This document shows, in pieces, positions 1 through 20,443 of a stretch of 28,243 bases of DNA. Each line of letters starts with the position of its first letter. Position 1 is the first letter of the stretch. Below the pieces are notes generated by a model. That model was given only the letters and a program-made list of their open reading frames with translations. It ran no database searches and had not been told where the DNA came from. The stretch comes from a virus. The DNA lies in the IMG/VR virus record IMGVR_UViG_3300033571_015157, positions 1-28,243 of that record. The stretch is one strand, 5' to 3'. Made by a program: the position numbers and the translations under genes.

Positions 1-81
1 CCTGATGTTCCACTTGAACCGTTTGCACCTGATGTTCCACTTGAACCGTTTGCACCTGATGTTCCACTTGAACCGTTTGCA
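1..81 (-). repeat. 27-bp tandem repeat, three identical copies
   Basis: Three exact copies (1-27, 28-54, 55-81) inside the collagen-like gene, each encoding nine residues, GANGSSGTS. The copies are identical even at third codon positions, which points to recent duplication or slippage. The array may continue beyond the window. Confidence 0.95.
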
Positions 82-1118
82 CCTGATGTTCCTGAAGAAC
101 CTGACTCGCCTGATGTTCCTGATGTGCCATCCATTGCAGATGTACCAGATGTACCGTTTGTTCCCGATGATCCTGATGTGCCCGATGTACCATTTAATCC
201 TGATGTACCTGATGAGCCATTCCCCCCTGACGTTCCTGATGAGCCATTCCCCCCTGACGTTCCTGATGAGCCCGATGTTCCAGAAAGTCCAGATGTTCCC
301 GATGAACCCGAAAGTCCAGCAAGACCAGATGTTCCCGATGAACCCGAAAGTCCAGCAAGACCAGATGTTCCCGATGTTCCACGAGTTCCACTTGTACCTG
401 ATGAACCAGATATTCCACTTGTACCTGATGTTCCCCGTGCTCCACTTGTACCTGATGAACCTGCTAATCCAGCAAGTCCAGATGTTCCCGATGAACCTCG
501 TATTCCACTTGTGCCTGATGAACCTGATATTCCACTTGTACCCGACGCTCCTCTAGTTCCACTTGTACCCGATGAACCTATTATTCCACTTGTACCCGAT
601 GTGCCACGGACTCCACTCGTACCTGATGTTCCACGAGTTCCACTTGTGCCTGATGAACCCGATACTCCATTTGTACCCGATGAACCTGATGCTCCGCTTG
701 TACCGGATGTTCCACGGGCTCCACTTGTACCCGATGTTCCACGTGTTCCGCTTGTACCCGATGTTCCACGTGTTCCGCTTGTACCTGATGTTCCACTGAT
801 TCCTGAAGTTCCGTTTATTCCATCGGTTATGGGTATCCATGTAGATCCATCTGATCTATAGACTTTGGTATCACTTATATTATAATATAGTCCACCTAAA
901 ATTGGTGATGGGTTGGTTGAATACTTTGGTAATTGTAATTCTTGATTAACTACTGATCTATAAACATCTATTGTTCCCGAAATAGACAAGTGCTGTACTA
1001 TAGATCCAGTGCCATCTAACAAGGTTTTGTCATCGGATGGATCTGTTTGCATTAATCTAAAGAATGATTCTGATATGTATAAGTCGGATAGATCTCGTGT
1101 TATATTAGGATCAGCCAA
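1..1118 (-). CDS. Collagen-like (Gly-X-Y) phage virion/tail-fibre protein, C-terminus outside window
   Basis: Probable fibrous virion protein. The frame is open from a TTG at 1118 to the window edge, giving 372 complete codons with no stop. Residues 1-99 are non-repetitive and end in a GGLYYN...DGSTW stretch of the kind common in phage tail proteins. Residues 100-372 form 91 collagen triplets, with Gly first in all but one; the exception is Ala-Met-Asp at 328-330. X and Y are mostly Ser and Thr, with Asn, Ala, Arg, Leu and Ile, and the visible triplets contain no Lys. The TTG start was chosen because an in-frame TAA lies just upstream, no ATG lies between them, and GAGAG sits 7 nt before it. 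The next in-frame ATG (1052) would remove 22 residues. It is the last gene of the glycan block, downstream of two glycosyltransferase genes. Its base composition is clearly more GC-rich than its neighbours because of the Gly codons. A fibre role is inferred; a capsid decoration is also possible. Confidence 0.88.
   Translation of the reverse strand, partial: MADPNITRDLSDLYISESFFRLMQTDPSDDKTLLDGTGSIVQHLSISGTIDVYRSVVNQELQLPKYSTNPSPILGGLYYNISDTKVYRSDGSTWIPITDGINGTSGISGTSGTSGTRGTSGTSGTRGTSGTSGARGTSGTSGASGSSGTNGVSGSSGTSGTRGTSGTSGVRGTSGTSGIIGSSGTSGTRGASGTSGISGSSGTSGIRGSSGTSGLAGLAGSSGTSGARGTSGTSGISGSSGTSGTRGTSGTSGLAGLSGSSGTSGLAGLSGSSGTSGLSGTSGSSGTSGGNGSSGTSGGNGSSGTSGLNGTSGTSGSSGTNGTSGTSAMDGTSGTSGESGSSGTSGANGSSGTSGANGSSGTSGANGSSGTS
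208..261 (-). repeat. 27-bp tandem repeat, two identical copies
   Basis: Copies at 208-234 and 235-261 within the Gly-X-Y region, followed by a partial third. Each encodes three triplets that include Gly-Gly-Asn. Confidence 0.9.
291..362 (-). repeat. 36-bp tandem repeat, two identical copies
   Basis: Copies at 291-326 and 327-362. Each encodes four Gly-X-Y triplets, including a Gly-Leu-Ala and a Gly-Leu-Ser triplet. The period is a multiple of 9 nt, so the triplet register is preserved. Confidence 0.9.
732..785 (-). repeat. 27-bp tandem repeat, two identical copies
   Basis: Copies at 732-758 and 759-785 within the Gly-X-Y region. They encode Thr/Ser/Arg-rich triplets, including Gly-Thr-Arg and Gly-Thr-Ser. 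Confidence 0.9.
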
Positions 1119-1125
1119 TTTTTTT

Positions 1126-1130
1126 CTCTC
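1126..1130 (-). promoter_or_regulatory. Ribosome binding site (GAGAG) deciding the TTG start
   Basis: On the minus strand GAGAG is followed by seven A residues and then TTG. The spacing is normal for a Shine-Dalgarno site and supports TTG at 1118 over the internal ATG at 1052. Confidence 0.55.
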
Positions 1131-1184
1131 ATATTATAGTATAATACAATATACGGATATAACTAACATCTATAAATATATGAT

Positions 1185-1212
1185 ATTATATTTTATATCT
1201 TTATTTTTTCAA
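1185..1212 (-). promoter_or_regulatory. Candidate sigma70-type promoter for the collagen-like gene
   Basis: Minus-strand TTGAAA (1212-1207), a 16-nt spacer, then TATAAT (1190-1185), in the 114-nt gap between the heptosyltransferase stop and the collagen-like start. Transcription would begin near 1178, leaving a leader of about 60 nt. The match is good, but the gap is extremely AT-rich, so chance matches are likely. The rest of the gap shows nothing recognisable. Confidence 0.35.
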
Positions 1213-1232
1213 ATTTCACAAGAGTTTAACCA

Positions 1233-2381
1233 TCATTTTTTTATAATTTTATCCATTTCTCTTTTTACCATATTAAATGTAATAGTTTTTGTACATTCAA
1301 ATTGTCTATCAGTCCCCTTATGTTCTGGACACCAATTCCAATCTCCCGCATCTAAGCGAAATCGATTAAAACAACCATTACATGAATCGTCATTAAACAC
1401 TCTATAAACATCAGTTCCTAAAAATTCAGCTATTGGTGTGCTGAATCCAGATATTAATATCGTTGGTATATTTAACGACCATGCTAACCAACTGAGACCA
1501 GATCCTATCCCTATAAAAAATTCACACGATAATAGTTCTTCTATTAAATTTTCTATAGATCCAGATGGAAATTTTGTTGCACCAATTGGATTTTTATTAC
1601 CCATATACCCATCTTCCTCTTTGGATAATATTGTCACTTCATATCCATTGGCAATTAGGTAATCCGTGACTTCTTGCCATCCAGTCGGATTGTTCCAATA
1701 TTTTGCTTGAGAAGTTGAGTGTATAGCTATACCCACTTTTTTTTGTCTTTCTATTTTTGGTAAATTTAATTTTGCTTTAATATGCTTAAATTCCAAACCC
1801 AAAATATCAGTTGCTGTTTGTTGTAGTGATATTTTTTTAAAATCTTGTGGATTCTTCAAGTTATTGTAGTTGTCCAATTCATCATAATACCAACCTATAG
1901 TATACATTGCATATAAATCTGTAACAATGTTACCGGGTTCCACAAATTCCAATTCTGAGTATGTGTCTTTGAATAGGTGGTTCCAAAATGTAGAGCAAAT
2001 AACATGACAATCCCATTTTTTTCTAAATTCATCAATATAAGGAACCCAAGCTAATGTATCGCCCAATGATTTTGAATCTAAGGCTATATAAACTCGTTTT
2101 CCCGTAGCATTATATTTTTCATCATATAATAAACCATCTTCATCGTAAATTTTACAAGTATATCCTTCAAAATATTTTTTGTTTGTTTTAGCCCAACAAT
2201 TTGAATTTACTTCCGTTCTAAATTCACAATGATTATTGGAATTCCAAAATTCAACAATAAATTTTTTATGAATTTGACTCTTTATTTCAATATACGCACC
2301 ATCTACAAAATGATTTATAATATTTATTTTATTATTTTTATTTATTATGTTACTATTCATAGTAATATTTTCATATATCAT
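1233..2381 (-). CDS. TibC/BAHT-like O-heptosyltransferase (GT9 superfamily)
   Basis: Probable protein O-heptosyltransferase, transferring heptose from ADP-heptose to Ser residues of a repetitive protein, as bacterial autotransporter heptosyltransferases do. Numbering from the ATG at 2381 (382 aa), the N-terminal part carries SLGDTL (105-110), whose Asp fits the catalytic position of this fold. The C-terminal half has GIGSGLSWLAW (291-301), typical of GT9 nucleotide-sugar binding. A cysteine cluster follows at C334, C337, C351 and C363 (C-x2-C-x13-C-x11-C), resembling the iron-binding finger of the TibC family. The ATG at 2381 is preferred over TTG at 2387 because AAGG lies 6 nt before the ATG but directly abuts the TTG. 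It sits between a multidomain glycosyltransferase and a Ser/Thr-rich collagen-like gene, which suggests a virion-glycosylation role. No signal peptide is seen, so it should act in the cytoplasm. Sugar and acceptor are inferred. Confidence 0.85.
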   Translation of the reverse strand: MIYENITMNSNIINKNNKINIINHFVDGAYIEIKSQIHKKFIVEFWNSNNHCEFRTEVNSNCWAKTNKKYFEGYTCKIYDEDGLLYDEKYNATGKRVYIALDSKSLGDTLAWVPYIDEFRKKWDCHVICSTFWNHLFKDTYSELEFVEPGNIVTDLYAMYTIGWYYDELDNYNNLKNPQDFKKISLQQTATDILGLEFKHIKAKLNLPKIERQKKVGIAIHSTSQAKYWNNPTGWQEVTDYLIANGYEVTILSKEEDGYMGNKNPIGATKFPSGSIENLIEELLSCEFFIGIGSGLSWLAWSLNIPTILISGFSTPIAEFLGTDVYRVFNDDSCNGCFNRFRLDAGDWNWCPEHKGTDRQFECTKTITFNMVKREMDKIIKK

Positions 2382-2387
2382 ACTCAA

Positions 2388-2391
2388 CCTT
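2388..2391 (-). promoter_or_regulatory. Ribosome binding site (AAGG) deciding the ATG start at 2381
   Basis: AAGG on the minus strand is separated from the ATG by six bases (TTGAGT). The alternative TTG at 2387 immediately follows AAGG and would have no spacing. Confidence 0.5.
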
Positions 2392-2410
2392 AAAAAATGC
2401 TAAAAAATGC
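2391..2410 (-). repeat. 10-bp direct repeat in intergenic gap
   Basis: Two adjacent copies of plus-strand TAAAAAATGC (2391-2400, 2401-2410), in the 71-nt gap upstream of the heptosyltransferase gene. Function unknown. The gap also holds a short AT palindrome near 2439-2450 but no convincing promoter or terminator. Confidence 0.5.
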
Positions 2411-2452
2411 AGTAAACAGTTGTTATTTGGTCTTATTTAAATTATAATTTAG

Positions 2453-5380
2453 TTATAGTTTGTTTATTAGACTGTCTTCACCAAAATGTCTAAATAGTTC
2501 CTCATTAGTAAATACTTGCCTACCATTCAATTCATTTGCAAATTGTGCCTCAAAGTTTTTAATTTTTTTAAATTCAAACTTGTGAAAAACACTACCTTTT
2601 ACAATAGATGGGTTATTTGTCCAATTATTTATAGAACCTCCAACCCAATGGTAAATGTCACCATTCCATCTTATAGGGTGACGAAACATATTAGGGTATG
2701 GATTATACCAATAGTCCAAGTCTTCACAATTTATATTTTTAATTTCATTTTCTTGTGCATATAATGGATCGCAAAATGCTATTTGTGTCCAATCTGAACT
2801 CAATAGCTTATTAACGTGATATTCTAATCTGATGTTAGCTTTGCACTCCCAATCATCTTCTAAAAATAAAACTACATCATCATAATTTATCAATTTACGA
2901 ATCATATTAAACTTATCAACAAAATCAAATGGTTTATTACTATTAAAATGTATAGTATTATAGTTGTCACCAAAATATTTATTCATTAATTCATCTACAA
3001 ATTTTCTGTCTTCGGAAGACGACCTATCGTCTAATAACCAAGTTTTTTCTAATTTACTCGATAAGTTTGGATTTTTATCAAATAAATGTTTTAACATTAT
3101 TTCTAAATAGTTATTTCGTCTACCTGATGATATTATTAATATTGGCTTTTTAATTTCGTTATACATTTCATCCTTTAACCGCATAGTAACGTTGTTAAAA
3201 TCTCTATGGACAAGGTGATAATTACTTTCTTCCAATTTTTTTATCATTGAAATAATTTCATTTTCATTATATAGCGAGTTTGCTTCAAAGTATATTTTTT
3301 TGGGTCTTATATTTGTTTTTAACATGTTATTCAGAATAGTTATATCATTCCCTTCGGTATCTACTTTTAAAAAGTCAATATCAACTATACCATATCGATT
3401 AACCAATTCTTCAAATGAAATACATTCTATAGATTCACACTTTAATATATGTTCTAAATTTCTTTCTTTTAAAAATAAATCTATGCTAGGATGTGGGTTA
3501 TCTATTGAATTACATCCTTTAACCCATTCTGGAAAGTTATTAGCCTCAATATCTTCAAGTGAAATATAGTATACGTTTGTTGTGTAATTTGTATCAGATA
3601 TTGCTACGTTTATTTTTTTGTTATTGGATTTTTCAGGTAGTCTATTCAAATATATTTGCATTGGGTCTATTGATAGGCCAAATTTATCATCCCCCATATA
3701 TTCCACCATTGTTTCAAAATCGGAAGTTCCTATTTCTATGTAATCATACTTATTACCATTTTTTTGCCATTTATTGACTAAATCTATTAAAGATTCACCT
3801 TCTATTTGATTGGAATATGCCACCTTTGTAGTGTATCTAGCTTTTGGGTATCTACTAAAAACATCATTTAACCACAAATCGTAACCGTCCCAAGGAACCT
3901 TTTCTATTTTGTCTAAGTACCAATCTTTATGTTTATTTGGTATTAGATAAGCATGACATAAATCTTGATCTTTACCTGTTTCTAAGAATATGTCATTTAC
4001 TTGATTTTTATATCTAGACGGATTATTACCAAATGACACATAATAAATGTCATCATATTTTTCAAAATTACAGGCCTCAAATATAATACTCACAAATTCA
4101 TCTATCGAATATTCTATATTAGCATCAGCTTCAAATATTAATGTATAATCATAATCATCATTCATAGACTTTATCGCATTTATATGTGCTAAAAAACAAC
4201 CATAGTGTCTTCCTGTTAATGTACCAAAACCACTTTCAAGATATTTCGGTTTGTCTGATATTAAGTGTGGTCTTTTACAAAAATTTTTTGGTGGTATTTC
4301 ATCATATGGTGGATTTATGTGTTGTGTATATTCTATCCCGTAATCTGCTAATTTAGATATGTAATTTATACTTCTTATCTCTCTTTTATGAGTTGTATTT
4401 GTTAGTAGATGTATTGCCTGTATTCTCGGTTTCTTTTCTTGTATTTTGAGTACATTTAGAAGATTTCTTATGTTTTCATATTGAATATTTTTTATGTAAT
4501 TTACTCTACCATCATATTCATTATCATAGGTATCTAAATTTTTTATAAATGTCGGTAGTCCATAACTCAATGCTTCCTTTATAACCAATGGGTTTAATTC
4601 TAAATTTGAAGTAAAATAAAAAGCATCAGATGCTTTATAAAATTTTTCAACGTCATCTCGTTCACCATGCCAAACACAATTATCTGGGAAATTTTCCATC
4701 AAATCACCCCAATAATCTCTAAAATTTTCAGCCTGATTTCCTACGAAATGAAATTTTATAGGTTTATCTATTAATTTTTTTGCCAAATTTATAAGTTCAC
4801 CTTGATTTTTTCCAGGCGTAAATAATCCCACATTCAAAACATGTTTGTATTTTGAATCAAATCCTAATTCTTTTTTAGCTAAATCTTTATCATATTTAAC
4901 TTCTGTAATTGGATACTCCCAAATATCACAGATGGACTCATCAAATACCTCTATAAACTTTTTTTTACTCCATTCAGAAACCAAAACATATTTGTCAGCA
5001 CCAAAAACTATGTTAGATGGCTCGGTTAATGAGCCATGGGTTGTTACTACTATTGTATATTGTCTATTTTTTGAATATATTACATTCAAATCATCAGATG
5101 ATATAAAACTTTGAGGGATTTCTTGAAAGTGTATTACGTCAGGATTAATATTTGAGATTATTTCATGTATTTCCTTTTTATCATTGGATAGGGAATAAAA
5201 ATTATCCTTTAATAAATCTATTATTTTATTTCTCTGTACAACAAATACACCACCTGTTATATTTTGATATTCTATGAGATATATTTCATTTGTTTTTCTA
5301 AACTCTTCTATCATTTTTAATGTATATTGTGGTAGTCCACCAGTAGAAAGATGTGGTACTATGTATAGAATTTTTTTCAT
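2453..5380 (-). CDS. Four-domain glycan enzyme: GT4-like, GT25-like, FkbM methyltransferase, GT-A-like
   Basis: Large (975 aa) cytoplasmic-looking enzyme with four apparent domains. Residues 1-310 look like a GT-B/GT4 glycosyltransferase: an STGGLPQY loop (12-19), VGLFTPGKNQGE (184-195) and an E-x7-E-type stretch near 261-269. Residues about 319-530 resemble GT25/LPS-type glycosyltransferases, with GRHYGCFLAH (390-399) and an EADAN metal-site-like motif (417-421). Residues about 545-735 look like an FkbM-family SAM-dependent methyltransferase, with DYIEIGTSDFET (546-557) and FLKVDTEGND (670-679). Residues about 745-975 resemble a GT-A/GT2-like fold, with LLDDRSS (782-788) and LEDDW (840-844). 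The ATG at 5380 has GAGGG upstream. It starts 12 nt after the Mre11-Rad50 stop and precedes the heptosyltransferase, so it probably builds or extends and methylates a glycan. Domain families are recognised from motifs; substrates are unknown, and each domain's activity is unproven. Confidence 0.82.
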   Translation of the reverse strand: MKKILYIVPHLSTGGLPQYTLKMIEEFRKTNEIYLIEYQNITGGVFVVQRNKIIDLLKDNFYSLSNDKKEIHEIISNINPDVIHFQEIPQSFISSDDLNVIYSKNRQYTIVVTTHGSLTEPSNIVFGADKYVLVSEWSKKKFIEVFDESICDIWEYPITEVKYDKDLAKKELGFDSKYKHVLNVGLFTPGKNQGELINLAKKLIDKPIKFHFVGNQAENFRDYWGDLMENFPDNCVWHGERDDVEKFYKASDAFYFTSNLELNPLVIKEALSYGLPTFIKNLDTYDNEYDGRVNYIKNIQYENIRNLLNVLKIQEKKPRIQAIHLLTNTTHKREIRSINYISKLADYGIEYTQHINPPYDEIPPKNFCKRPHLISDKPKYLESGFGTLTGRHYGCFLAHINAIKSMNDDYDYTLIFEADANIEYSIDEFVSIIFEACNFEKYDDIYYVSFGNNPSRYKNQVNDIFLETGKDQDLCHAYLIPNKHKDWYLDKIEKVPWDGYDLWLNDVFSRYPKARYTTKVAYSNQIEGESLIDLVNKWQKNGNKYDYIEIGTSDFETMVEYMGDDKFGLSIDPMQIYLNRLPEKSNNKKINVAISDTNYTTNVYYISLEDIEANNFPEWVKGCNSIDNPHPSIDLFLKERNLEHILKCESIECISFEELVNRYGIVDIDFLKVDTEGNDITILNNMLKTNIRPKKIYFEANSLYNENEIISMIKKLEESNYHLVHRDFNNVTMRLKDEMYNEIKKPILIISSGRRNNYLEIMLKHLFDKNPNLSSKLEKTWLLDDRSSSEDRKFVDELMNKYFGDNYNTIHFNSNKPFDFVDKFNMIRKLINYDDVVLFLEDDWECKANIRLEYHVNKLLSSDWTQIAFCDPLYAQENEIKNINCEDLDYWYNPYPNMFRHPIRWNGDIYHWVGGSINNWTNNPSIVKGSVFHKFEFKKIKNFEAQFANELNGRQVFTNEELFRHFGEDSLINKL

Positions 5381-5392: not shown

Positions 5393-8300
5393 TTAAAAAT
5401 TTATTGCAGAATATCCATTTTCTTTTCTTATATCTATTTGACTATCTACTATATCACGTACAACATCAATATGGGATATTATTATAACAAATTCAAACTG
5501 TGTTTTTAGGTAGTCCAAGAATATAGAGAAATTGGTTAATATCGTGGAGTCCAAAGCGCCCAATCCTTCGTCTATAACTATAAAATTTGGTCTTGGTAAT
5601 GAAGAAACGTTTATTAAAGCAGCTCTTATCGCTAATGAAGCAATAAATTTTTCCATACCACTCGAAAGTTCCAATGCCCAATATCTCTCATCATCGTAGA
5701 CTATGTAAGTGTTTATACTTTTACCATCCGTGTCAAATAAAACTTGAAAATCTACTATGTTAGATAAAATCAAATTTGTTTCATTCTGAACTTTTGGTAA
5801 AGCTTCACTTATAAGTTGATATGGTACGCCGTTTCTATTAACGGCTTTTAAATAATAATCGTAGGCATAAAATTCTTCTTCCAAATCCTTTAACTTTTGT
5901 ATCGATTCTTCACAATCTTCTACTACCTGCTGATGTATTTTTATGTCACCACTATACTTGATTATATCATCGTCCATCATTTTAACGGAATTTAAGAGTG
6001 TAAATTTTACAATCTTTATTGCTTCTATTTCTTCACGTGTCTTCTTATTAGATAAAATAATTTCTTCATTTTGCTTAAATGTTTGTATACCGTACTCAAT
6101 TTTTTTTATTGAATCATCTATGTCATTTAGGGCATCCTTATTTGTATTTAAGCGTTTTTCTAAGTTGTATAATTCTTTTTGATAGAAAAATACATCATTT
6201 TCATATTTTCTAAGATTATCCAATTCCACATAAACACTCGACTCTGACTTAAATTTATCTTGTAAATCTTGAAGTTCCGTTTCTACAGAATTTAATTCCA
6301 TAGTTAATTCCTTCATTTTAAGTTCAGACTGTTTTGCATCTAAAACAAAGGCATTATTAACACAAAATTTACAATTTGGATCATATTCATGCGATGAAAG
6401 TGTATCCAATTTTAATTCACAGTGCTTTATTTCTGATTTAATGTTTCTAAGGTCAGATTCTTTTTTATTTATAGTACCACGTAATAAGTCTAAATTACTT
6501 CCCCTATCTACTAATTCTTGTTTGTTAAAAGATTCTACTACTTTTGTATACTTTATAAAAGATGCATTTGCATCACTAAGTTGTTCTACTATAGAATTCT
6601 TTTCTTTTTCTAACTTATCTTTTTTATCTAATTCAAATTTTAAGTCAGTCTCCATTTCTTCTATAGAAGCTAATGAAAAGTCTTCATTTATTTCTACCAA
6701 TCTTTTACTCAACTCCATTAGAGACGCATTTAAGGTTTCTATCGTCTCATTGGTAGTTTTTTTAGAGTCATAGACTTCATCTAATAATTTTGAATATTCT
6801 TTGAATTTTACCTTTGAATCAGCTATCTTTGATGAATAATCATGCTTACTAAATTCTTTTATTAGTGTCTGTACTTCTTTCACATCAGCTGATGCTATTG
6901 AATTTAATTCCTCAAACAAATCCAAATCTAAAAATTGAGCTAACAAATCCTTTCTATCTTTTTGAGCTTTGTCAACAAAATTGGTATTATTTCCTTGAAG
7001 TGACATTACTGTTATTATAAAGTCGTCATAAGTACCCAAATATTTTCTTATTATAAAATTGGTTGAATCTCTATCTTGACCGTTTAAAACAGTTTTTCCA
7101 TCTTCATCCTCAGACCAAAAATCAACATTTACCTTAACACTACCTTTTTTATCTCTGTTACCAACCCTCTCTATGAAGTAAGTTTTACCAGCTAAAGTCA
7201 ATTCCAATTTACATCTAAAATTATCTTTTTGATTATTCATTACTTGAGCTGCTTTATATGTTCGAGAGCATTTGTCAAAAATACAGAACATTATTGCATC
7301 TAATACAGATGACTTTCCACTAGCATTAGGTGCAAATAACCCATATACGCCGTTCATGTCCGTAAAATCTATAGTGTTACCATCTCCGTATGAGAACATA
7401 TTATCAAATTCAAATCTTACTGGTTGCCACACGAGATTTCTTACAATATCAGACTCGGAAATTTTTTTGTTTATTAAGCGATTTATAGACGATACTTTTT
7501 CTAATATTTCATCCGTTACATTATATCTGCTCTTTATGAAGTCTGATATTAACTTATTTTGGTGTTCCACATCACGTATATCACCAACAGGTGATTGTGT
7601 AGTTTGTATTTGTGATGTTAGTTTATTGCTTATCCTTTGGATTCTTACGTCTTCTATATTTGCCTTAGATTTTAATTCGGTTATTATATTGAATATGTCA
7701 GCATTTGATGTATTATTTGATTTTAAGCGTATACAATTTATTTTTGAATATTCGGTAGGATAACTTTTTACAACACCTTCATTAACTTCTACGGTGTGAT
7801 ATGCCCAATCATTTTGTATTCTAACGAACTTTGATTTATCATTTTTTATATCCCATTCAATTACACCATGTATCAAACCTTCACCGAAATTTTGTTGGAT
7901 AAGAGATCCAGCGTAGGCAAATTTACACTTTGAATCCAAGTATTGAAATTTGTGTATATCACCAAACATACCATAATCGAATCCAGAAAAAAGGTCAACT
8001 GTTATTTTATTATTATGCATTACTGTTCCAGTATCAGTAGTTGCCATATCAACAGCACCATGATACAACACAATTTTTTTGTTATCAGATACTACATCTT
8101 TTGCTAAAATAAAATTTTCTGATTCTTCATATACTGAATTAACAACAAAATCAATATTTTTTAAAGTATAAACTCCAGATTCTTTTAGATAAAATAACAT
8201 ATTGTAATCACTATCTATGAAATCTACTATTGGTGTTAGCGCATCTAACCTTGATGAATTATTAAGATTACAGTCGTGATTTCCTGCTATTAAAATAGTT

Positions 8301-8569
8301 GGAGCTATTCTAGATAATGTGTTTAAAAACTCACTCACCAAATGTACCAATTCGGGTGTCATATCCGTCTTAGCGTGTACAATATCTCCAGCGAGATATA
8401 ATATAGTGTTTTTATTTTCTGCTGCCTTTTGTCTACAAAATGTATACAGTTTTTCAAAAACACCACGATATTCTTCGTGCCTTTTAAAATTACGAATGTG
8501 TACATCTGCTATATGTATTATAGTTTCTACTTCAGATATATGACTTGTTCGTAGAATTTCTTTATGCAT
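5393..8569 (-). CDS. Fused Mre11-Rad50 (SbcD-SbcC; T4 gp47-gp46-like) recombination nuclease
   Basis: One 1058-residue polypeptide joins the two subunits normally made separately. The Mre11/SbcD-type phosphoesterase occupies about residues 15-260, with its metal-site motifs in order: DVH (22-24), GDIVH (61-65), GNHD (96-99), YHG (169-171) and GDIH (203-206). The Rad50/SbcC-type ATPase begins near 383. It has a P-loop APNASGKSS (413-421), a Q-loop SLQG (523-526), long coiled-coil arms from about 555 to 900, a zinc hook CKFC (733-736), an LSSGMEK signature (968-974), Walker B FIVIDE (996-1001) and an H-loop SHID (1032-1035). In T4 this complex processes DNA ends for recombination-dependent replication. 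The ATG at 8569 is preceded by AGAGGA and overlaps the end of the primase gene by 8 nt. The P-loop has Ala instead of the usual first Gly. Confidence 0.95.
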   Translation of the reverse strand: MHKEILRTSHISEVETIIHIADVHIRNFKRHEEYRGVFEKLYTFCRQKAAENKNTILYLAGDIVHAKTDMTPELVHLVSEFLNTLSRIAPTILIAGNHDCNLNNSSRLDALTPIVDFIDSDYNMLFYLKESGVYTLKNIDFVVNSVYEESENFILAKDVVSDNKKIVLYHGAVDMATTDTGTVMHNNKITVDLFSGFDYGMFGDIHKFQYLDSKCKFAYAGSLIQQNFGEGLIHGVIEWDIKNDKSKFVRIQNDWAYHTVEVNEGVVKSYPTEYSKINCIRLKSNNTSNADIFNIITELKSKANIEDVRIQRISNKLTSQIQTTQSPVGDIRDVEHQNKLISDFIKSRYNVTDEILEKVSSINRLINKKISESDIVRNLVWQPVRFEFDNMFSYGDGNTIDFTDMNGVYGLFAPNASGKSSVLDAIMFCIFDKCSRTYKAAQVMNNQKDNFRCKLELTLAGKTYFIERVGNRDKKGSVKVNVDFWSEDEDGKTVLNGQDRDSTNFIIRKYLGTYDDFIITVMSLQGNNTNFVDKAQKDRKDLLAQFLDLDLFEELNSIASADVKEVQTLIKEFSKHDYSSKIADSKVKFKEYSKLLDEVYDSKKTTNETIETLNASLMELSKRLVEINEDFSLASIEEMETDLKFELDKKDKLEKEKNSIVEQLSDANASFIKYTKVVESFNKQELVDRGSNLDLLRGTINKKESDLRNIKSEIKHCELKLDTLSSHEYDPNCKFCVNNAFVLDAKQSELKMKELTMELNSVETELQDLQDKFKSESSVYVELDNLRKYENDVFFYQKELYNLEKRLNTNKDALNDIDDSIKKIEYGIQTFKQNEEIILSNKKTREEIEAIKIVKFTLLNSVKMMDDDIIKYSGDIKIHQQVVEDCEESIQKLKDLEEEFYAYDYYLKAVNRNGVPYQLISEALPKVQNETNLILSNIVDFQVLFDTDGKSINTYIVYDDERYWALELSSGMEKFIASLAIRAALINVSSLPRPNFIVIDEGLGALDSTILTNFSIFLDYLKTQFEFVIIISHIDVVRDIVDSQIDIRKENGYSAINF

Positions 8570-11848: not shown

Positions 11849-14419
11849 TTATGTATACCTAACTTTAACATTTATTACGTATTCTTGCGTACTATCTTTT
11901 AAAAATGGTCTTGAAAATTTTCCTATTGCTAATAACTCGTTTCTTTGATTGTAAAGACCTATTGTTGTTATGTAGGTTTTAGTTCCATTATTCAATTTAT
12001 CATAATATATCTTCAAAGTAGAACCACTAGCATAAGTATAATTATTGGAGTAATTAAATTCGTTCCTATTTATCCTACAGAAAAAGTTTTGATCTGCATA
12101 CAGTTCCGAAGAACGCATATACCAATGTGATCCACTATCTCTAACTAAATTCGGTGAACATGAACCACTTAGTGATACAAATAATTTTCTTGGATTATCA
12201 CCGTCGATTGAAGCTGTCACAGTATTGAAAGAACATGAAGCATCCAACATCTCGCCGTTTAGCAATATCAAGCCCTTATTTGGAAATACCAACCCCCAAC
12301 CTTCAGAATTTTCATAGTCTATTGGACCGTCTTGTATTGTACCCGATACTAAATTGTAGCATTCATCTGACGTTTCAAACGAAGATGAGTATATCATAGT
12401 ATACATAGAATCGTCAATTAAAGTAAATACCGTACTAGAACTAACATCAATTTGAAAATTGCTTCCAGTATTTATCAATTGATTCGGATTTGACAATAAT
12501 GGCGATAACGATATTTGTATATTTCCAGTATTTAATTTATCCTTAAAAGCGTCTCTATCAAATTGTAAAGCATAAAAGTAATCACTTTCATTTCCATTTT
12601 TAAACTTTATTCTATCTACACCGTTAAAACATTCTGCCATATATTTTTTATACATGCCTTTTGATGGAAAGTTTTCAATTTCAATATTCAAGTTAGTTGA
12701 TATATGGGATGATCCAGATCCAGATATATGTGCATATGCAATATCAAATATTTTTTTAGATCTTATATCCGATAAAGGCCTATTATAAACACTCATATAA
12801 TACTTAGCTGTTGTTTCATTTAGTGTACTACTAAAAAACTGATTGGTTCTATCCGAATCTGCTAAAAAAAGTGGTTTTGTTTTGTAGATTTGATCTGATA
12901 TTGAATAGTCATTAGCAAAATCAAATGATTTATAAATTGATGCTATAGAACTAATTGGTGTTACATTACTAACCCGTGTTGTATTCAAATCACTAGGACC
13001 TTGTTGTATAGCTACAGTTGATTCAGTTAATCCTGTTAGGATAAATGGATCATCCATTGGAATTGAATTAAATTCATTAAACTTTACAGGTATTTCTGAT
13101 ATTAATGGGTATGAATATTTTTTTTGTAGGGAAATGTATTTGTGTATTAAGTTATACAGTTTACCGTTTATGATACCTATGCTATAGGCATTTTCTAACT
13201 TATATTTAGAAAAAGTATCCGTCATTTCTGCATATAGTATATCAAAGCTATCAGTTTGTGTTAAATCAGGCTGTGTTGGTTCTGCTTCACCATCTCCTAT
13301 ATCTAAAGTATCTGATATTGAAGTTATAGTAATTTGTGCTTGTATTTCTAAAAAGAAATTTGTTACTGCATAATCCTCAACTAGATTAATATCAGTTATT
13401 TCTGGTTCTACATTGTATATCTGCTTTGTAGTTAAAGTGTCCAATATTTCTTCTAAATTCGGATTTACTTCACTATAAATTCCAACATTGAATGTGTCTG
13501 GATTTTTTATAAAGGAGTATATTTTTCCATATTTTGATTTTTCTGTTCTTAGTGTTTTTATGTATTCTGTTGGATCGTAATATTCTCTTGGTCTAAATCC
13601 TACAGGCTTATCACCAACAAATTCTTTGAAGTATTTTGCCAATTCTTCTATATGACGGTCTGTTACTAAAAAAACATAATTTGCATTTTCAACATTAGTT
13701 TTTTTGTGGTAATCCGAATATACTAAATTGTTAGCATCATTCTTATCTATTGAAAACCCGTCCCAATCATATCCTAACTTTATATTACTATATTCTATAT
13801 TATTTGGATACTCGGTATCAAACAGAAATAAACAACTAAGATTTTTTAAAAAATTATAAGATATACTTGTTTGTTTTTCTACTTCCATTAATTGTTTGTG
13901 TGTTAACTTACCTATTTTATATTCTCTTTTAGAAAATCCAATATCATATGGTATTTTTTTTGAAAGATTACTTAGCATATCTTGCGTTTGAAGTGTGGTT
14001 GGCCAATTAATCATATTATTGGAAGTAAAGTATACTGCCTTTTCACACGATTTATATTGATTTGGTATAGATTGGCCATAGGTATATGTATAATTACTAC
14101 CAGAAAAAGATTCGGACACACAAACTTCAGTATAAAAGGTATTTATTACTTTTATTGTTTTTCCAATATTTTTTATAACTAAATCTGTTGTTGGGTTGGT
14201 TGGTTTCGTTCCATTGAATTGAACGAATTGCGGATCGTTAGTATCTCCCTTAGAAACAACACTTTCTAATACTCCAGTACGTGGGTTTACAACCCACACA
14301 TTATTATCGGGTACTCCTAATGATATACTTTTTTTTAAGTCATATCCATCGTTATCTGCCCTTTCATCTATAAAAGACCCAATATATCCTACTTCGATAA
14401 CATCATATTCTTTAGCCAT
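11849..14419 (-). CDS. Tail paralogue 4: unique N-terminus plus shared core module
   Basis: Probable virion protein of 856 aa. Residues 1 to about 488 are not recognised; they are mixed alpha/beta with no transmembrane segment. From about 490 the sequence aligns end to end with the 381-residue paralogue: SIYKSFDF (494-501), KYYMSVYN, FDIAYAHISGSGS, FTLIDDS, a VSGTIQDG segment, WGLVFPNKGLILLNG, FNYSNNYTY, and finally TYITTIGLYNQRNELLAIGK close to the C-terminus. The ATG lies one base after the TGA of the 1006-residue gene (TGATATG), which suggests translational coupling. Its position in the baseplate/tail cluster suggests an appendage or fibre-network component. Function is inferred from context only. 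Confidence 0.85.
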   Translation of the reverse strand: MAKEYDVIEVGYIGSFIDERADNDGYDLKKSISLGVPDNNVWVVNPRTGVLESVVSKGDTNDPQFVQFNGTKPTNPTTDLVIKNIGKTIKVINTFYTEVCVSESFSGSNYTYTYGQSIPNQYKSCEKAVYFTSNNMINWPTTLQTQDMLSNLSKKIPYDIGFSKREYKIGKLTHKQLMEVEKQTSISYNFLKNLSCLFLFDTEYPNNIEYSNIKLGYDWDGFSIDKNDANNLVYSDYHKKTNVENANYVFLVTDRHIEELAKYFKEFVGDKPVGFRPREYYDPTEYIKTLRTEKSKYGKIYSFIKNPDTFNVGIYSEVNPNLEEILDTLTTKQIYNVEPEITDINLVEDYAVTNFFLEIQAQITITSISDTLDIGDGEAEPTQPDLTQTDSFDILYAEMTDTFSKYKLENAYSIGIINGKLYNLIHKYISLQKKYSYPLISEIPVKFNEFNSIPMDDPFILTGLTESTVAIQQGPSDLNTTRVSNVTPISSIASIYKSFDFANDYSISDQIYKTKPLFLADSDRTNQFFSSTLNETTAKYYMSVYNRPLSDIRSKKIFDIAYAHISGSGSSHISTNLNIEIENFPSKGMYKKYMAECFNGVDRIKFKNGNESDYFYALQFDRDAFKDKLNTGNIQISLSPLLSNPNQLINTGSNFQIDVSSSTVFTLIDDSMYTMIYSSSFETSDECYNLVSGTIQDGPIDYENSEGWGLVFPNKGLILLNGEMLDASCSFNTVTASIDGDNPRKLFVSLSGSCSPNLVRDSGSHWYMRSSELYADQNFFCRINRNEFNYSNNYTYASGSTLKIYYDKLNNGTKTYITTIGLYNQRNELLAIGKFSRPFLKDSTQEYVINVKVRYT

Positions 14420-14420
14420 A

Positions 14421-17400
14421 TCACCAATTCAATCTTATTTTTATTAAAATGTCTTTATCTGGTGTTTTAAGAATTGGTTTGCTAACTTTAGCAACTGCCA
14501 ATAATTCATTCATGTCATTGTAAAGTCCAATAGTTGTTATGTATGTTGTTGGTCTGTGTCTAAAATATTCGTTTTTAATATAACGACTATCAGTGACCAT
14601 TTCATCTATAACGGTTGGATTATTTGTATAGTTAGATGTGGATGCACCAACTCTAACAAAATAATGGTTAGTCTTTTTATTTTTAGAACTTCTTGCCTTT
14701 AATGGATTCCCAATTGAAGCTGCACCACTTATAGCTGTAAATAATTTGTAGGAGTTATCACCATCGATATTATCATCCAAGTCAGTGCCCAATGATATTT
14801 CATCATCTAATTTTTCAGCATCCAATATGATGAATCCTAAATTTGGATAAACTCTACCATATGTGGTTATATTTTTGTTCGTCTCTATACTACCGCTTCC
14901 TGATGGGTGTATTCCATCTGATAGACTTCCACTTACTATGTCAAAATAAGTGTATACATATTGATTTGAAAATTTATCTTCTAATATATCCCTTGAATTA
15001 TCAATTAAGGTGAGTGTATTTCCACCACCATATAGACTTAATTCAAAATTACCTGGATCTATTCTATCTGTTAATGAATCTCTATTAAACGATATAGCGT
15101 ATATGTCTTTTCTTGAACTGCTATATACACCGTTATTATAAAAATTAAATTCAGTTTCCGATTGATCCAAAGCTAATAGTCTATATTGACCATATATCGC
15201 TCTTGATGGTGAATCGTTAAATTCATATCCCTCATACAGAGACCCAGAACCATACTTATTACCATAAGCTACAGAAAAATATGATACCGGTGTTCCATTA
15301 ATAACTCTTGTTTCATCTACAACATCATAATAATATTTTTTTGAATCTAAAGATTGAATAGAGCTGGTACTATATGATAGTAATGATTGTGTGTGGTTAA
15401 ACAATCCCTTAGTTACTAAAATATCACGAGCAGCCATTATATCTTTTCCTTTTATTAAAGGATGGTATACTCTTAATGGTGTATCTATGCAGTCTGCACG
15501 TTGTACCTTTCTTGATAATTTAATTCCAGGACCAAGGCCACTATAATCTTCAGTTGTTAGAGTTTCTGGACCTTTAATGTAATTATCCATCCCAGAGGTA
15601 CTATAGTCTGGATATTTATTGAATATTTTTAAAGTGTGTATCTCGTAACACCCTCTAATGTCCGAAGCATCTACGTAAGGTTCTTGTTCTTTTGCTAATT
15701 CAGTTGGAATACATACATCATTAAACCCAATTTCTGTTCCAGCAAACTGCACATCTTCCCATACTTCAAATTGCATACCTCTTTGTGCAAACAGTGCTTC
15801 ATCAACTCTCCATTCATACTCATTGAATATTTTTCCCAAACAATTTAATTGCACTTCCCATTTTCTTTCGTGAACAAAACCACGTATGTATTTTGTTCTA
15901 AATCCACGATAACATGGATCACTTGGTATTTGTTCTGGAACAGCTGATCTACCGTTTGGTGCAAGTTTTATTAATTGTTCTCCAACAGGTCTCAATTCAG
16001 AAGTTGGTTTCTCGTCTGTAATAAAACATCCAGTATTAGGAGAAAGGCATGATAATCTACCATAAACTACATTAGAAATATAAGCGTATGGAAGTGTTCT
16101 TTCTGGAACGCCACTTATTTTAGATAATAAATCTGGTTTAGAAGCTCGAGTAGTTGTTGATCTTACCTGTTTCTGATCACTTCTACCGTCATATATTTTT
16201 ATTTGTGATTTTCCTGTTAATTTTGAGGTTATAACTGTATCCAAATATAATGTATTTGCTTTTGAAAATCTATTGCATGATGTAGCATTTGGATTATTAG
16301 AATCAAATTCACTCCAATATGCTGTTCCATCATCTATTTCATCAGCTATTGCTGTTATAGTTTGTTTAGCTTTTAGTAACTGACCCGCTGTTGGTATTAA
16401 ATTTGCAAAGTTAGCTGCATTTATAGCTTCTAATGAATCGTCACTAAATATTTGGATTGGTATAGAACCAGGGTCTAATTTTCTCCATTCCCTTATGTCA
16501 TTGAACTTAGAATTATCATAATAGTATTGGTATACCGGAAGTAATCCACCTAAAAAATCATCACAATCTTCATACCAAAAGGAACCAACTCCATTGGCAA
16601 TAACAACATTATCCATAACCATAGTTTGAGTTGTTGCTCCATTCTGTGCGTTTGGTTTGGTATAACATTGGTATATGTCAGCTATTATTTTTGCAGAATG
16701 CTTTGTTTTTCTTGAATCAAAGTATGGTGAATTTATATCAGGATTATTTGATGTTTCGGTATAAATCTCTCTAACATTTCTTAAACTAAAATATCTAACA
16801 CTTCCCGTAGCCTTTCTGCCCAAAGGACTGTTTATTCCTGGATCCTGAGGTTGTTGTCCTACTCCCCTCAAAACTATACTATTTGTTCCACCAACACTGT
16901 TACTATAAAAAACTATACTAGTTGTAAATGATGCAACTGCACTTGGACTAAATCTTACTTGTAAGTCTAATTGTCTGCCACTTGGTATTGTGTATCTACT
17001 CGATGGGTTTATTGCTGGCCAATTTACAGGCGTAAATACATTGGATTGTGGTGAAATGAAATAACTATCTATTATTAAGTCAGCGGTTCCCGTATTTCTT
17101 ATTGTAAATGTTTTAGTCGTTGATGTATTAATATCCAAAGCAGAAAAGTCTAACGTATTACTGACTTCTATTTTTGCTTCTGGAGTGGATGTACCACCAC
17201 CACCGATTGTAACACCACATCCTAATTGTGATGAAGCAGTTTCTAAGTTTGATAAATCAGCTTCTAAATCATTTAATTCATTTCTAAGTTGTTCTTGTCT
17301 GAAAGTATCATTAGAACTAATAGAGGCATTCAATTCTGCCCTAAGTGTTGGTATAATAACTTCACCATATACCTCTATTTCAGATAGTATAAAATCACAA

Positions 17401-17441
17401 TCTAATAATAAAGCATCTGTTAATGTATATCTAACTGCCAT
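14421..17441 (-). CDS. Tail paralogue 3: helical start, ASH/Hydin-like Ig domain and shared core module
   Basis: Structural protein of 1006 aa, the largest of the five paralogues. Residues about 10-75 look helical and partly coiled-coil. Residues about 88-196 resemble an ASH/SPD-2/Hydin-type immunoglobulin-like domain, with FTIRNTGTADL (112-122), VRFSPSAVASF (162-172) and IVLRGVG (189-195). Residues about 200-670 are unrecognised and rich in Tyr, Asn and Cys. From about 672 the shared module appears: FSVAYGNKYGSGS, SRAIYGQYRLLALDQ, YAISFNRD, LTLIDNS, YGRVYPNLGFIIL, KLFTAISGA and YFVRVG, ending with TYITTIGLYNDMNELLAVAK. AAGG lies 6 nt before the ATG, and the gap to the 381-residue gene is 8 nt. 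Ig-like and coiled-coil elements are common in phage tail appendages. The exact role is unknown. Confidence 0.85.
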   Translation of the reverse strand: MAVRYTLTDALLLDCDFILSEIEVYGEVIIPTLRAELNASISSNDTFRQEQLRNELNDLEADLSNLETASSQLGCGVTIGGGGTSTPEAKIEVSNTLDFSALDINTSTTKTFTIRNTGTADLIIDSYFISPQSNVFTPVNWPAINPSSRYTIPSGRQLDLQVRFSPSAVASFTTSIVFYSNSVGGTNSIVLRGVGQQPQDPGINSPLGRKATGSVRYFSLRNVREIYTETSNNPDINSPYFDSRKTKHSAKIIADIYQCYTKPNAQNGATTQTMVMDNVVIANGVGSFWYEDCDDFLGGLLPVYQYYYDNSKFNDIREWRKLDPGSIPIQIFSDDSLEAINAANFANLIPTAGQLLKAKQTITAIADEIDDGTAYWSEFDSNNPNATSCNRFSKANTLYLDTVITSKLTGKSQIKIYDGRSDQKQVRSTTTRASKPDLLSKISGVPERTLPYAYISNVVYGRLSCLSPNTGCFITDEKPTSELRPVGEQLIKLAPNGRSAVPEQIPSDPCYRGFRTKYIRGFVHERKWEVQLNCLGKIFNEYEWRVDEALFAQRGMQFEVWEDVQFAGTEIGFNDVCIPTELAKEQEPYVDASDIRGCYEIHTLKIFNKYPDYSTSGMDNYIKGPETLTTEDYSGLGPGIKLSRKVQRADCIDTPLRVYHPLIKGKDIMAARDILVTKGLFNHTQSLLSYSTSSIQSLDSKKYYYDVVDETRVINGTPVSYFSVAYGNKYGSGSLYEGYEFNDSPSRAIYGQYRLLALDQSETEFNFYNNGVYSSSRKDIYAISFNRDSLTDRIDPGNFELSLYGGGNTLTLIDNSRDILEDKFSNQYVYTYFDIVSGSLSDGIHPSGSGSIETNKNITTYGRVYPNLGFIILDAEKLDDEISLGTDLDDNIDGDNSYKLFTAISGAASIGNPLKARSSKNKKTNHYFVRVGASTSNYTNNPTVIDEMVTDSRYIKNEYFRHRPTTYITTIGLYNDMNELLAVAKVSKPILKTPDKDILIKIRLNW

Positions 17442-17449
17442 TTTTTACC

Positions 17450-18595
17450 TTAATAATCTAATTTAATTTTTATGATCATTTCTGAACTTGATGTTTTTAT
17501 TACGGGTTTTGATAACTTAGCTACGGCTAATAATTCGTTATCATCATTGTAAAGTCCAACGGTAGTTACATAAGTAACATTTCTATTCGTATCATTTGCC
17601 GTACCTGAGAGTCTTAGGTTATCTTTTATCCTATACGAATCACTAACACTTGCTGTATAGTAGCTGATATTATTACTATAATTAAATTCACCATTACCAA
17701 CTCTTGCAAAATAAATAGTAGAGTGTATTGTTTCAAGTGTTCTTCCTTCAAAAGTATAGGCAGAACCAGATGACATAGAAGCACTTATAGAATTAAAAAA
17801 TCTTATACTATTATACTTACTACCCGTTTCGGCAGCTGCTCTATTAGTATTCATAGAAGCGGATGCATCTAAAGCTTTACCGTTTAAAACTATGAGTCCG
17901 TAGTCTGGATACACAACACCATATGGCACGGCAGAGTTTGCTCCACTATAAAGTCCATCATCTAAACTACCACTGTAAACAAAGTAATATTGGCCACCAT
18001 TTCCAGTACGTACAAGACTTGTATCTAATAGATAAGTTTGACTTAAAGTTTCATCTACTAATTTTGTTATTTTATTACCAGATGGAAGACCAGTAACTGC
18101 ATTAGTACCGTGTAATGATAACTCCCAAGACCCAGGTGCAAGTTTTTCTTTATATCTGTTTCTATTAAATGATACAACATATACATATTCTGAGGTTTCT
18201 GTGTATGGTGCAGTTAATGTATTTGAATTATCGTACCCATTTGCTTGCGATACAAACTCAAATAAATTCTGTTCAGTATCCAACAGTAATTGTTTGAATT
18301 GTGAATACATAGCTTTAGATTCTAATGCTTCAGTATTGATGCCATTTTCTAATGAACCGCTAGACGAACCACTATTTAAAAAATCACAATATGTTATTGT
18401 AAATTGTTTTTCAGCTCTTGATCCAGAATCATTATACACGTCTAAATAGTATAATTTTTGTGTTTCTGACTGAAGTGAACTTGTGTAGATTTTAGCTAAG
18501 GATGAACTATTTTTCGACCAAATAGGTCTTGATATAAAATCACGTCTATCATAAGCTATAGAACCAAATTCAAAGTTTTTATAAACCGAAGTCAT
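17450..18595 (-). CDS. Tail paralogue 2: shared core module alone
   Basis: Protein of 381 aa that is essentially the bare core module. In order it shows SVYKNFEFG near the start, LYYLDVYND, FTITYCDFLNSGSSSGS, SKAMYSQFKQLLLD, YVVSFNR, GSWELSL, KLVDETL, YVYSGSLDDG-like segments, YGVVYPDYGLIVLNG, YFARVGNGEFNYSNN, and the C-terminal signature VTYVTTVGLYNDDNELLAVA (about 340-359). Its whole length corresponds to the C-terminal half of the 856-residue protein, so one may derive from the other by gain or loss of the N-terminal part. It begins 3 nt after the 388-residue gene. A beta-rich virion subunit is likely; no catalytic motif was seen. Confidence 0.83.
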   Translation of the reverse strand: MTSVYKNFEFGSIAYDRRDFISRPIWSKNSSSLAKIYTSSLQSETQKLYYLDVYNDSGSRAEKQFTITYCDFLNSGSSSGSLENGINTEALESKAMYSQFKQLLLDTEQNLFEFVSQANGYDNSNTLTAPYTETSEYVYVVSFNRNRYKEKLAPGSWELSLHGTNAVTGLPSGNKITKLVDETLSQTYLLDTSLVRTGNGGQYYFVYSGSLDDGLYSGANSAVPYGVVYPDYGLIVLNGKALDASASMNTNRAAAETGSKYNSIRFFNSISASMSSGSAYTFEGRTLETIHSTIYFARVGNGEFNYSNNISYYTASVSDSYRIKDNLRLSGTANDTNRNVTYVTTVGLYNDDNELLAVAKLSKPVIKTSSSEMIIKIKLDY

Positions 18596-18598
18596 ATA

Positions 18599-19765
18599 TT
18601 AATACTCTAACTTAACTGTTATTGAAACTTCACTATTAAAAGATTTTTGTATTGGTTTACTGAGTTTTGCAACTGCTAATAAATCATTATTATCGTTATA
18701 CAATCCAACTGTTGTTATGTAAGAATATGGATTGTATTTGAAACTATCAAAAAGTAATTTACCGTCATCATCAAATTTCATAGTTGGATTATTACTATAA
18801 TTCATTTCATCACTGTTTACCCTAACAAATATAGTTTGCTGATTTTTTATTTCAACACCACGTGCTATGAATCCATAGTCTGAATTTATTTCAGCTGCTC
18901 CACTAATTGCTGTGAATAATTTGTGAGCGTTTTCACCATCTATATTGGATCCAGTAACAGTATTAAATGAAGCGGACTGATTTAATTTTTGAGCACTTAT
19001 TAGTATTACTCCTTGCTCTGGAAAAACCAATCCAAAGTATTGTGGTATTCCACTACCATCATTGTATATTGAACCCAATGTTCCACTGACTAAATTTCTA
19101 ACCTTTGCTGGTTTTTGTGTAGTCTCCATCGAGTCCATGTAATCGGATGAATCATCTATCAACGATATTATACTTTGAGATGGTGATACTTCAACATTAC
19201 TTCCAGTATAAACGTTATTAGCATAGTCGTTGCCATTCAGTACGGCTATATTTAATTGGAAATTTCCAGAATCTAATCTATCACCATACTTTTCTCTATT
19301 CAAGCTAACAGCATAAAAATCATTTATGTAATTAAATGTATCTCCACCTGATGATGTTATCCATCCATACTCAGCTAAATGAGAGTTTTCAGCTGAACGT
19401 AATTGGAACTGATTTCCAGCTGGAATTTCATCTAAACAACTTAATCTGTATTGTGAATATATCGCTCTTGATGGTGTGTCATCTAATCCAGGTGTATTAA
19501 TATCACCCTCCACCCAAGTCGTGCCGTATCCTGAAACATGACCGTATGCTATAGAAAACATTTCATTTTCTATAGTATCAACGGATTGGGACATCCATAC
19601 TTGTGTATAATATTGCTTAGACGTATTTGATTGAGCAGAACTAGTATGAAATGTAGTTAGTGTTCCAATCCCGTTTGCCCAAACTCCACGAGTGTATAGT
19701 GATGTGAATATATTTGATAATAAAGTATTATTATCATTCGTGGTAACTTCTTTAAATACTGACAT
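18599..19765 (-). CDS. Tail paralogue 1: shared core module alone
   Basis: First of the five tandem paralogues, 388 aa. It carries the full core: FSIAYGHVSGYG (70-81), SRAIYSQYRLSCLDE (99-113), YAVSLNREKYGDRLDSGNFQ, ISLIDDS, LVSGTLGS, FGLVFPEQGVILI, HKLFTAISGAAE, FVRVNSDEMNYSNNPT, and the C-terminal signature SYITTVGLYNDNNDLLAVAK. It starts 36 nt after the 213-residue gene, a gap that contains a run of ten T bases. The motif set is shared with its neighbours but I know no named family for it. It is probably a beta-rich structural subunit of the tail or baseplate. Confidence 0.83.
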   Translation of the reverse strand: MSVFKEVTTNDNNTLLSNIFTSLYTRGVWANGIGTLTTFHTSSAQSNTSKQYYTQVWMSQSVDTIENEMFSIAYGHVSGYGTTWVEGDINTPGLDDTPSRAIYSQYRLSCLDEIPAGNQFQLRSAENSHLAEYGWITSSGGDTFNYINDFYAVSLNREKYGDRLDSGNFQLNIAVLNGNDYANNVYTGSNVEVSPSQSIISLIDDSSDYMDSMETTQKPAKVRNLVSGTLGSIYNDGSGIPQYFGLVFPEQGVILISAQKLNQSASFNTVTGSNIDGENAHKLFTAISGAAEINSDYGFIARGVEIKNQQTIFVRVNSDEMNYSNNPTMKFDDDGKLLFDSFKYNPYSYITTVGLYNDNNDLLAVAKLSKPIQKSFNSEVSITVKLEY

Positions 19766-19801
19766 AGATTAATCCATATTTTTTATTCGTTAAAAAAAAA
19801 A

Positions 19802-20443
19802 TCAAACATTTCTTTGGGTTATTTTTATATTAGCTACAAACCTTGCACCCGTTTGATCTGCTGTTACTATCAATTTTGTAGTTGCAGATGTATTTGTTGG
19901 AAGTTGTGTTCCGGTTGGTATAATGCGTATTCCACTTTGTGCTGGAACCGATGAGTTTGTTACCGATCTTCCTGGAAGCACATTTGTAAATCCTTCAAAT
20001 GTTGCATAAGTATTGTCTAATATATGATAGGTATATGACGTATTTGGGTCTGATTGTTGACCGTTTGTACTTAAATGTACAGATGATGGTTTTACTTCTC
20101 TACCAAGTGTATCATTTGTAAATAGATCTATTTGGCCTTTGTATACACTATCTGGGTTTATAAATGGTATGTGTGTTGTTCCAGGGGGCATTGTTATCAG
20201 TTTATATTTTAATGCTTGAGTTTCATCTGGAACAGCTTGTAATATTGGTAAATTCTCTATAGTTGCACCATAGTAATCAGTTCCACCTGGATGGGATGGG
20301 TTCCATAAATCATAATCAATTTCATCATCTGCCAAAGCAAATTTAGTTATATTAAATGCATTTCTTCCTTGAGCCAAAAGTTCACGACCTTTTTTTGTGA
20401 GGATTGCATCTACCGTTATGCTACTATTATTCAAATAAGACAT
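19802..20443 (-). CDS. Virion-type protein of unknown function, marine T4-like phage family
   Basis: Protein of 213 aa with a distinctive N-terminus: ITVDAILTKKGRELLAQG (8-25), then ITKFALADDEIDYDLWN (32-48). As far as I can recall, this pattern recurs in structural proteins of marine T4-like phages near the baseplate genes, but I cannot name a function. The rest is predicted beta-rich, with many Thr, Pro and Asn, and there is no signal peptide or membrane segment. It has the clearest ribosome binding site in the window, AAAAGGAG 6 nt before the ATG. It also lies behind the longest intergenic gap, so it may be strongly and separately expressed, as an abundant virion protein would be. It is followed by the five paralogues, which it may help attach. 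Confidence 0.8.
   Translation of the reverse strand: MSYLNNSSITVDAILTKKGRELLAQGRNAFNITKFALADDEIDYDLWNPSHPGGTDYYGATIENLPILQAVPDETQALKYKLITMPPGTTHIPFINPDSVYKGQIDLFTNDTLGREVKPSSVHLSTNGQQSDPNTSYTYHILDNTYATFEGFTNVLPGRSVTNSSVPAQSGIRIIPTGTQLPTNTSATTKLIVTADQTGARFVANIKITQRNV

Follow-up and report, generated by a model that had tools for sequence, protein, structure and literature searches.

Why does a phage encode, side by side, a relative of the bacterial autotransporter heptosyltransferases and a collagen-like protein rich in serine and threonine, and what does this transferase modify? The question arises from a viral contig of 28,243 bases, which is called the window below. An earlier note on this DNA had proposed that the phage uses neighbouring genes to glycosylate its own collagen-like fibre. 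We examined this proposal gene by gene, and by comparison of the locus with viral and bacterial relatives.

The genes of the locus and their products

A multidomain enzyme, a BAHT-family transferase and a Gly-X-Y protein are encoded contiguously on the minus strand (unless stated otherwise, all window coordinates below refer to this strand). In the order of transcription, an SbcCD-like fusion is followed by the 975-aa enzyme, the 384-aa transferase and the Gly-X-Y protein, with spacers of 12, 65 and 114 bases between the four genes, and all credible genes nearby lie on the minus strand. The three adjacent genes and their coordinates had been read correctly in the earlier note, with one reservation: the collagen-like gene is not complete. 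The SbcCD-like gene (5393-8569) is a single ORF of 1058 aa that joins an SbcD-like nuclease and an SbcC-like ATPase (matches to phrog_100 and phrog_77). Farther upstream in the window, the region 11849-25494 of the same strand encodes several large proteins of 856, 1006, 381, 388, 213, 1438, 200 and 367 aa, for which PHROG matches were absent or marginal.

The gene for the Gly-X-Y protein (3..1118) starts at 1118 and leaves the window at its edge; 372 aa from the N-terminus onwards are visible and the 3' part of the gene lies outside. The product matches PF01391 (132.6 bits) and is a probable fibre and the probable acceptor of a glycan. Its tract (3..821) consists of about 90 (S/T)(S/T)G triplets, mostly GTS (40 triplets) and GSS (17 triplets), in uninterrupted runs of 76 and 14. 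Serine and threonine occupy 73 % of the X and Y positions, in agreement with the Ser/Thr-rich protein described earlier, and proline occurs at neither position, unlike in proline-rich collagen. The first ~50 residues have a relative in the Microcystis phage Mel-JY01 that is annotated as a structural protein, which suggests that the window protein is a virion component. A plus-strand ORF at 1-861 (PDVP/PLVP repeats) was discarded as a gene; it runs antisense to the Gly-X-Y tract.

The 384-aa transferase (1233..2387) scored 287.5 bits against TIGR04414 (autotransporter O-heptosyltransferase), for which the curated cut-off is 200, and aligned over its full length with TibC (PDB 4RAP; E 7e-60). 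The TibC/BAHT identity assigned to it earlier is thus firm. Key residues of TibC are Asp-110, Thr-226, Lys-230, Trp-305, Arg-286 and the four iron-finger cysteines Cys-339, 342, 358 and 370 (PMC4358343). The window enzyme retains the catalytic Asp110 together with Thr225, Lys229 and Trp300, and all four cysteines of the iron finger (Cys336/339/353/365). We scanned viral contigs for relatives of the transferase and kept 80 loci of 357 matched stretches; with phage records and L085 added, these formed 35 clusters at 90 % identity. The Asp, Thr, Lys and Trp residues and the four cysteines were invariant across the 35 clusters wherever the position was covered. Arg-286, which in TibC contacts the donor adenine and is needed for activity (PMC4358343), is replaced by Leu in the window enzyme and by a hydrophobic residue in most relatives of its clade. 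The TibC-type clade retains this arginine, as do L003 and one bacterial lineage (L219, L222-L225).

In a maximum-likelihood tree, one branch (SH-aLRT 99-100) separated the phage BAHTs and the repeat-associated bacterial BAHTs from TibC and the other bacterial BAHTs; a second tree omitted two long-branched rows and one fragment. Within the first of these groups, phage and bacterial enzymes were interleaved in a quick-search tree that is not suited to fine reading, and this interleaving would imply transfers. No autotransporter domain was matched among the seven nearest proteins scanned in the window, which is itself a fragment. Because an autotransporter partner, Arg-286 and a grouping with TibC were each looked for and found to be absent, we file the window enzyme as a BAHT relative in a sister subfamily, which probably acts as TibC does, on a different repeat.

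The 975-aa enzyme (2453..5380) had been described as a protein of four domains. Two of these are firm, namely the GT4 glycosyltransferase domain (residues 1-310, 4451..5380; PF00534, 52 bits against a cut-off of 26.4) and the FkbM-type methyltransferase domain (residues 566-722, 3215..3685; PF05050, 39.4 bits against 22.7). The other two stay below threshold in the window. The GT25-like domain (residues 313-545, 3746..4444) scored 18.7 bits with PF01755 (cut-off 24) and 29-33 bits in relatives. Its AF2 model (pLDDT 85.5) had COLGALT1, as the best, and mimivirus R655 as top PDB fold matches; at the ~16 % identity of the COLGALT1 match, no substrate can be read from the model. The C-terminal domain (residues 736-975, 2456..3175) is possibly GT-A/GT2-like, with its identity unsure (PF00535, 15.1 bits, cut-off 23.3; single-sequence model pLDDT 49), and no relatives of it were found in viral contigs.

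Relatives of the whole 975-aa protein were limited to one viral contig, recognized by peptide patterns, together with two phage records that cover residues 1-537 only. With whole-protein relatives so few and partial, the four-domain arrangement is not conserved. The notion of a coherent three-gene unit had to be given up for the large enzyme, of which only the GT4 part recurs generally: a GT4 homologous to that of the window lies near the BAHT or is fused to it in 27 of the 35 phage clusters, and the presence of the other domains varies. The nearest syntenic relative (L006) has an SbcCD-sized gene, a GT4 protein, a BAHT and a collagen-like protein in the same order as in the window, with a GT4 protein whose second half is unlike that of the window enzyme. 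The neighbouring ORF in this relative, of 1059 aa, matches the size of the 1058-aa SbcCD-like ORF.

Pairing of the transferase with Ser/Thr-Gly tracts

We scored a tract as present when eight or more triplets occurred within the fetched flank. By this measure, 26 of the 35 phage BAHT clusters have a tract, which may lie on either side of the BAHT and on either strand, and several of the nine clusters without one are short contigs. Nearly all of the phage tracts are Ser/Thr-rich and almost free of proline, the exception being L074 (21 % proline). For the 17 viral records that were read completely, the distance between BAHT and tract was smaller than under random placement (combined p ~3e-6, on the assumption of independent records, which does not apply to related phages). 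The contig of L058 (G010) has two BAHT genes, at 1941 and 72713, each of them with its own convergent collagen-like gene less than 2 kb away.

The earlier note had regarded independent occurrence of the transferases and the collagen-like gene as evidence against its model. Such cases were found: in L009 the BAHT is kept beside a fibre without a tract, G006 and LR756504 contain a BAHT and gave no collagen match, and in G009 the BAHT and the tract are 39 kb apart. Independent occurrence, the refuting case named in that note, is thus seen in some related phages and is not family-wide. These records can be read as signs that the BAHT acts on a different protein of the virion (a beta-rich tail protein or another fibre) and that the tract co-travels with it in exchangeable fibre modules. 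Consistent with this reading, L009 retains its BAHT beside a fibre that shares its ends with that of L008 and lacks the tract, three sizeable records have no tract or a distant one, and TibC itself acts on beta-helical repeats (PMC4358343). What weighs against it comes from the bacterial loci described below.

The two fibre proteins in question (L008, 11190-12290; L009, 6910-8322) have near-identical ends and adjoin related BAHTs. With a collagen insert in the former and none in the latter, the pair looks like a natural swap of the tract. The gene that follows the fibre gene in L009 (8335-16857) encodes a protein of 2841 aa, in which RCC1-like repeats (GTLWGWG...) occur.

A scan of bacterial genomes yielded eighteen loci nearest to the phage enzymes (L209-L226) and a second set that we call TibC-type, a label assigned from the tree. 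In most of the eighteen loci, an (S/T)(S/T)G tract is found close by, usually within a small protein of exported or lipoprotein-like type; these bacterial proteins share only the tract with the phage proteins, the other phage fibre parts being absent. Five loci (L209, L210, L220, L221 and L226), in which the BAHT fusions are phage-like, are possibly of viral origin. When whole genomes were examined, a collagen-type tract lay near the BAHT in 12 of 14 genomes with a BAHT of the window's clade, within 1.3 kb in 11 of them, against none of five (beside the BAHT) for the TibC-type clade. In six genomes of 2.3-9.2 Mb (G033, G037, G038, G039, G041 and G042), the sole collagen-type locus of the genome adjoins the BAHT. 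The combined p for the bacterial pairing was ~1e-19 under simple assumptions and with genomes chosen by similarity to the window's BAHT.

Other neighbours (DUF6502, GST, adenylosuccinate lyase, a regulator) are not common to all loci of the first set that were scanned. Because these neighbours vary from locus to locus, the repeat protein stands out as the one constant neighbour, and we therefore consider it quite unlikely that the BAHT is directed at some other virion protein. A DUF6502 protein (PF20112) is encoded directly before the BAHT in three loci from gammaproteobacterial genomes (L223, L224, L225).

A search that starts from the repeat avoids choosing genomes by their BAHT. We searched 61 Methylobacter-family genomes for (GTS)3 DNA and found the tract in four; in three of these four, a BAHT is encoded less than 0.6 kb away from it. 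A BAHT above the cut-off was present in seven of the 61 genomes. Three of the seven were already known from the BAHT scan, which makes the test partly independent, and G173 was new. We also compared viral contigs of at least 20 kb that carry a (GTS)4 tract with those that carry a GPX tract. Among the matches listed, 14 of 50 GTS-tract contigs had a BAHT above the cut-off, compared with 1 of 45 GPX-tract contigs (p ~5e-4), and the single GPX-tract contig with a BAHT, again among the matches listed, also has an SSG/TSG tract. The remaining 36 of the 50 GTS-tract contigs among the matches listed, contigs being fragments, had no BAHT. Two broader associations were rejected: that any collagen-type tract tracks the BAHT, since GPX tracts do not, and that GT4 is an equally specific marker (17/50 versus 8/45, among the matches listed).

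These comparisons bear on a further explanation, in which the transferases modify the host surface (LPS or envelope glycans), for instance to block superinfection, and their nearness to the fibre gene reflects clustering in the tail-fibre region. In its favour, enzymes of the FkbM and GT4 families are often involved in envelope glycans. For pelagimyophages, the glycosyltransferases and rfaE of the tail-fibre regions have been interpreted as agents of host modification (PMC7029224). We nevertheless find modification of the host surface unlikely. Bacteria also show the pairing with the repeat, away from tail-fibre regions; the pairing is specific to Ser/Thr-Gly tracts and does not extend to GPX collagen, with GT4 alone a weaker marker; and the acceptors of known BAHTs are protein serines (PMC4358343). 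The proposal that a TibC-type transferase acts on the neighbouring Gly-X-Y protein is strongly supported by the pairing, which is seen in phages and independently in bacteria.

Probable donor sugar and proposed assembly of the glycan

Heptose had been named as the first sugar. No HldE-like gene was found within the window. In G019, G020, G023 and G024, an HldE-like nucleotidyltransferase gene lies at most 0.4 kb from the BAHT, and in L032 such a gene is flanked by those for a cupin protein and a PfkB kinase (HldE-like). The best NCBIfam matches are the HldE activities, at scores below the cut-offs: TIGR02198 (heptose-7-phosphate kinase) with 131.7 bits and TIGR02199 (heptose-1-phosphate adenylyltransferase) with 90-109 bits. 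The HldE-like neighbours of some phage copies favour a heptose-type donor; another nucleotide or sugar is possible, because most of the clade lacks Arg-286. Taken together, heptose is likely but not certain.

On this evidence, we think it probable that the locus encodes an O-glycosylation module of a BAHT subfamily. In the host cytoplasm, the BAHT would place the first sugar, most likely heptose from an ADP-heptose-like donor, on Ser and Thr of the (S/T)(S/T)G tract of the fibre, as TibC does on serines of its own repeats. The GT4 domain of the next gene would probably extend this sugar, and the GT25-like and FkbM parts, which are variable between phages, might then further modify or cap the glycan, methylation included. 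The first-sugar step draws its support from gene identity and pairing, the later steps from the functions of the families. The core of the earlier proposal is well supported, in a broader form than it was given there; the same cannot be said of its detailed pathway. If the protein is present in the virion, its glycan could influence stability or adsorption, or cloak the particle.

A more far-reaching version of this model applies to the BAHT subfamily of phages and of bacteria from several phyla. In it, the (S/T)(S/T)G repeats serve as a dedicated acceptor and the O-glycan stabilizes a proline-free rod; we offer it tentatively, as a possibility that may well prove wrong. Ordinary collagen is stabilized by proline and hydroxyproline. 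Because the tracts lack proline, a dense glycan might stabilize the rod, and worm collagen with glycosylated threonine provides a parallel.

Phage DNA would be a different kind of acceptor altogether. Virus-encoded glycosyltransferases that modify DNA are known (cited in PMC12619734). With the active-site and iron-finger residues of the BAHT intact and the bacterial copies adjoining repeat proteins, we regard glycosylation of the phage DNA by these enzymes as highly improbable.

Relation to known glycosylation systems

Glycosylation of the fibre tract, the reading that we favour, has counterparts elsewhere. BclA of Bacillus spores is a glycosylated collagen-like protein, and animal and mimivirus collagens are likewise glycosylated, with GT25/COLGALT enzymes. 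The proposed system resembles these in bearing sugars on Gly-X-Y repeats and in its GT25-like domain, the fold of which matches COLGALT1 and mimivirus R655. It differs in that the enzyme proposed to add the first sugar is a BAHT and in that the repeats are without proline.

With the TibC/AAH autotransporter heptosyltransferases (TIGR04414; 4RAP, 4RB4; PMC4358343), the window enzyme shares homology over the full length, the catalytic Asp, the Thr/Lys phosphate contacts, the Trp and the four Cys residues. Unlike them, the phage-type BAHTs belong to a separate clade and have mostly lost Arg-286, their partner is an (S/T)(S/T)G repeat protein and not an autotransporter, and they are often fused or next to a GT4.

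In mycobacteriophages, too, glycosyltransferases encoded by the phage are believed to act on virion proteins of the phage itself (Freeman et al. 2023, as cited in PMC12619734). As described there, the modified sites are the C-termini of capsid and tail-tube proteins, which sets that system apart from the BAHT and likely Gly-X-Y acceptor found here. The tail-fibre hypervariable regions of pelagimyophages resemble the window in having glycosyltransferases near fibre genes and contain rfaE in addition; they are interpreted as modifying the host O-chain (PMC7029224), and in the text consulted we found no BAHT and no link to a Ser/Thr-Gly tract.

A literature search, which did not cover all journals, found no paper describing the pairing of a BAHT with (S/T)(S/T)G repeats, and nothing directly relevant turned up on phage BAHTs, TSG-repeat glycoproteins or Mel-JY01. 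The occurrence of the enzyme-plus-repeat pairing in many phages and in unrelated bacteria points to a widespread, apparently undescribed mode of producing sugar-coated protein rods. If this is true, an unexplained class of Gly-X-Y repeats would acquire a function, and BAHT enzymes would act not on autotransporter adhesins alone but also on phage fibres and on surface proteins of bacteria. It would also suggest an alternative reading of those glycosyltransferases in phage tail-fibre regions that have been attributed to modification of host LPS (PMC7029224), and might open a way to a collagen-like material without proline. The enzyme and its acceptor would form a simple pair, testable by co-expression of two genes.

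The same array is present in the cultured Microcystis phage Mel-JY01 (PP395634.1), which encodes a GT4-BAHT fusion and, besides the structural protein that shares the N-terminus of the window protein, a large ORF with TSG repeats. At one end of this record (L002, 1-3052), the only annotated CDS is one of 177 aa (2519-3052). Since the frame is open from the start of the record for 1016 aa and contains long TSG/SSG tracts, we read it as encoding a giant collagen-like protein that was missed in the annotation.
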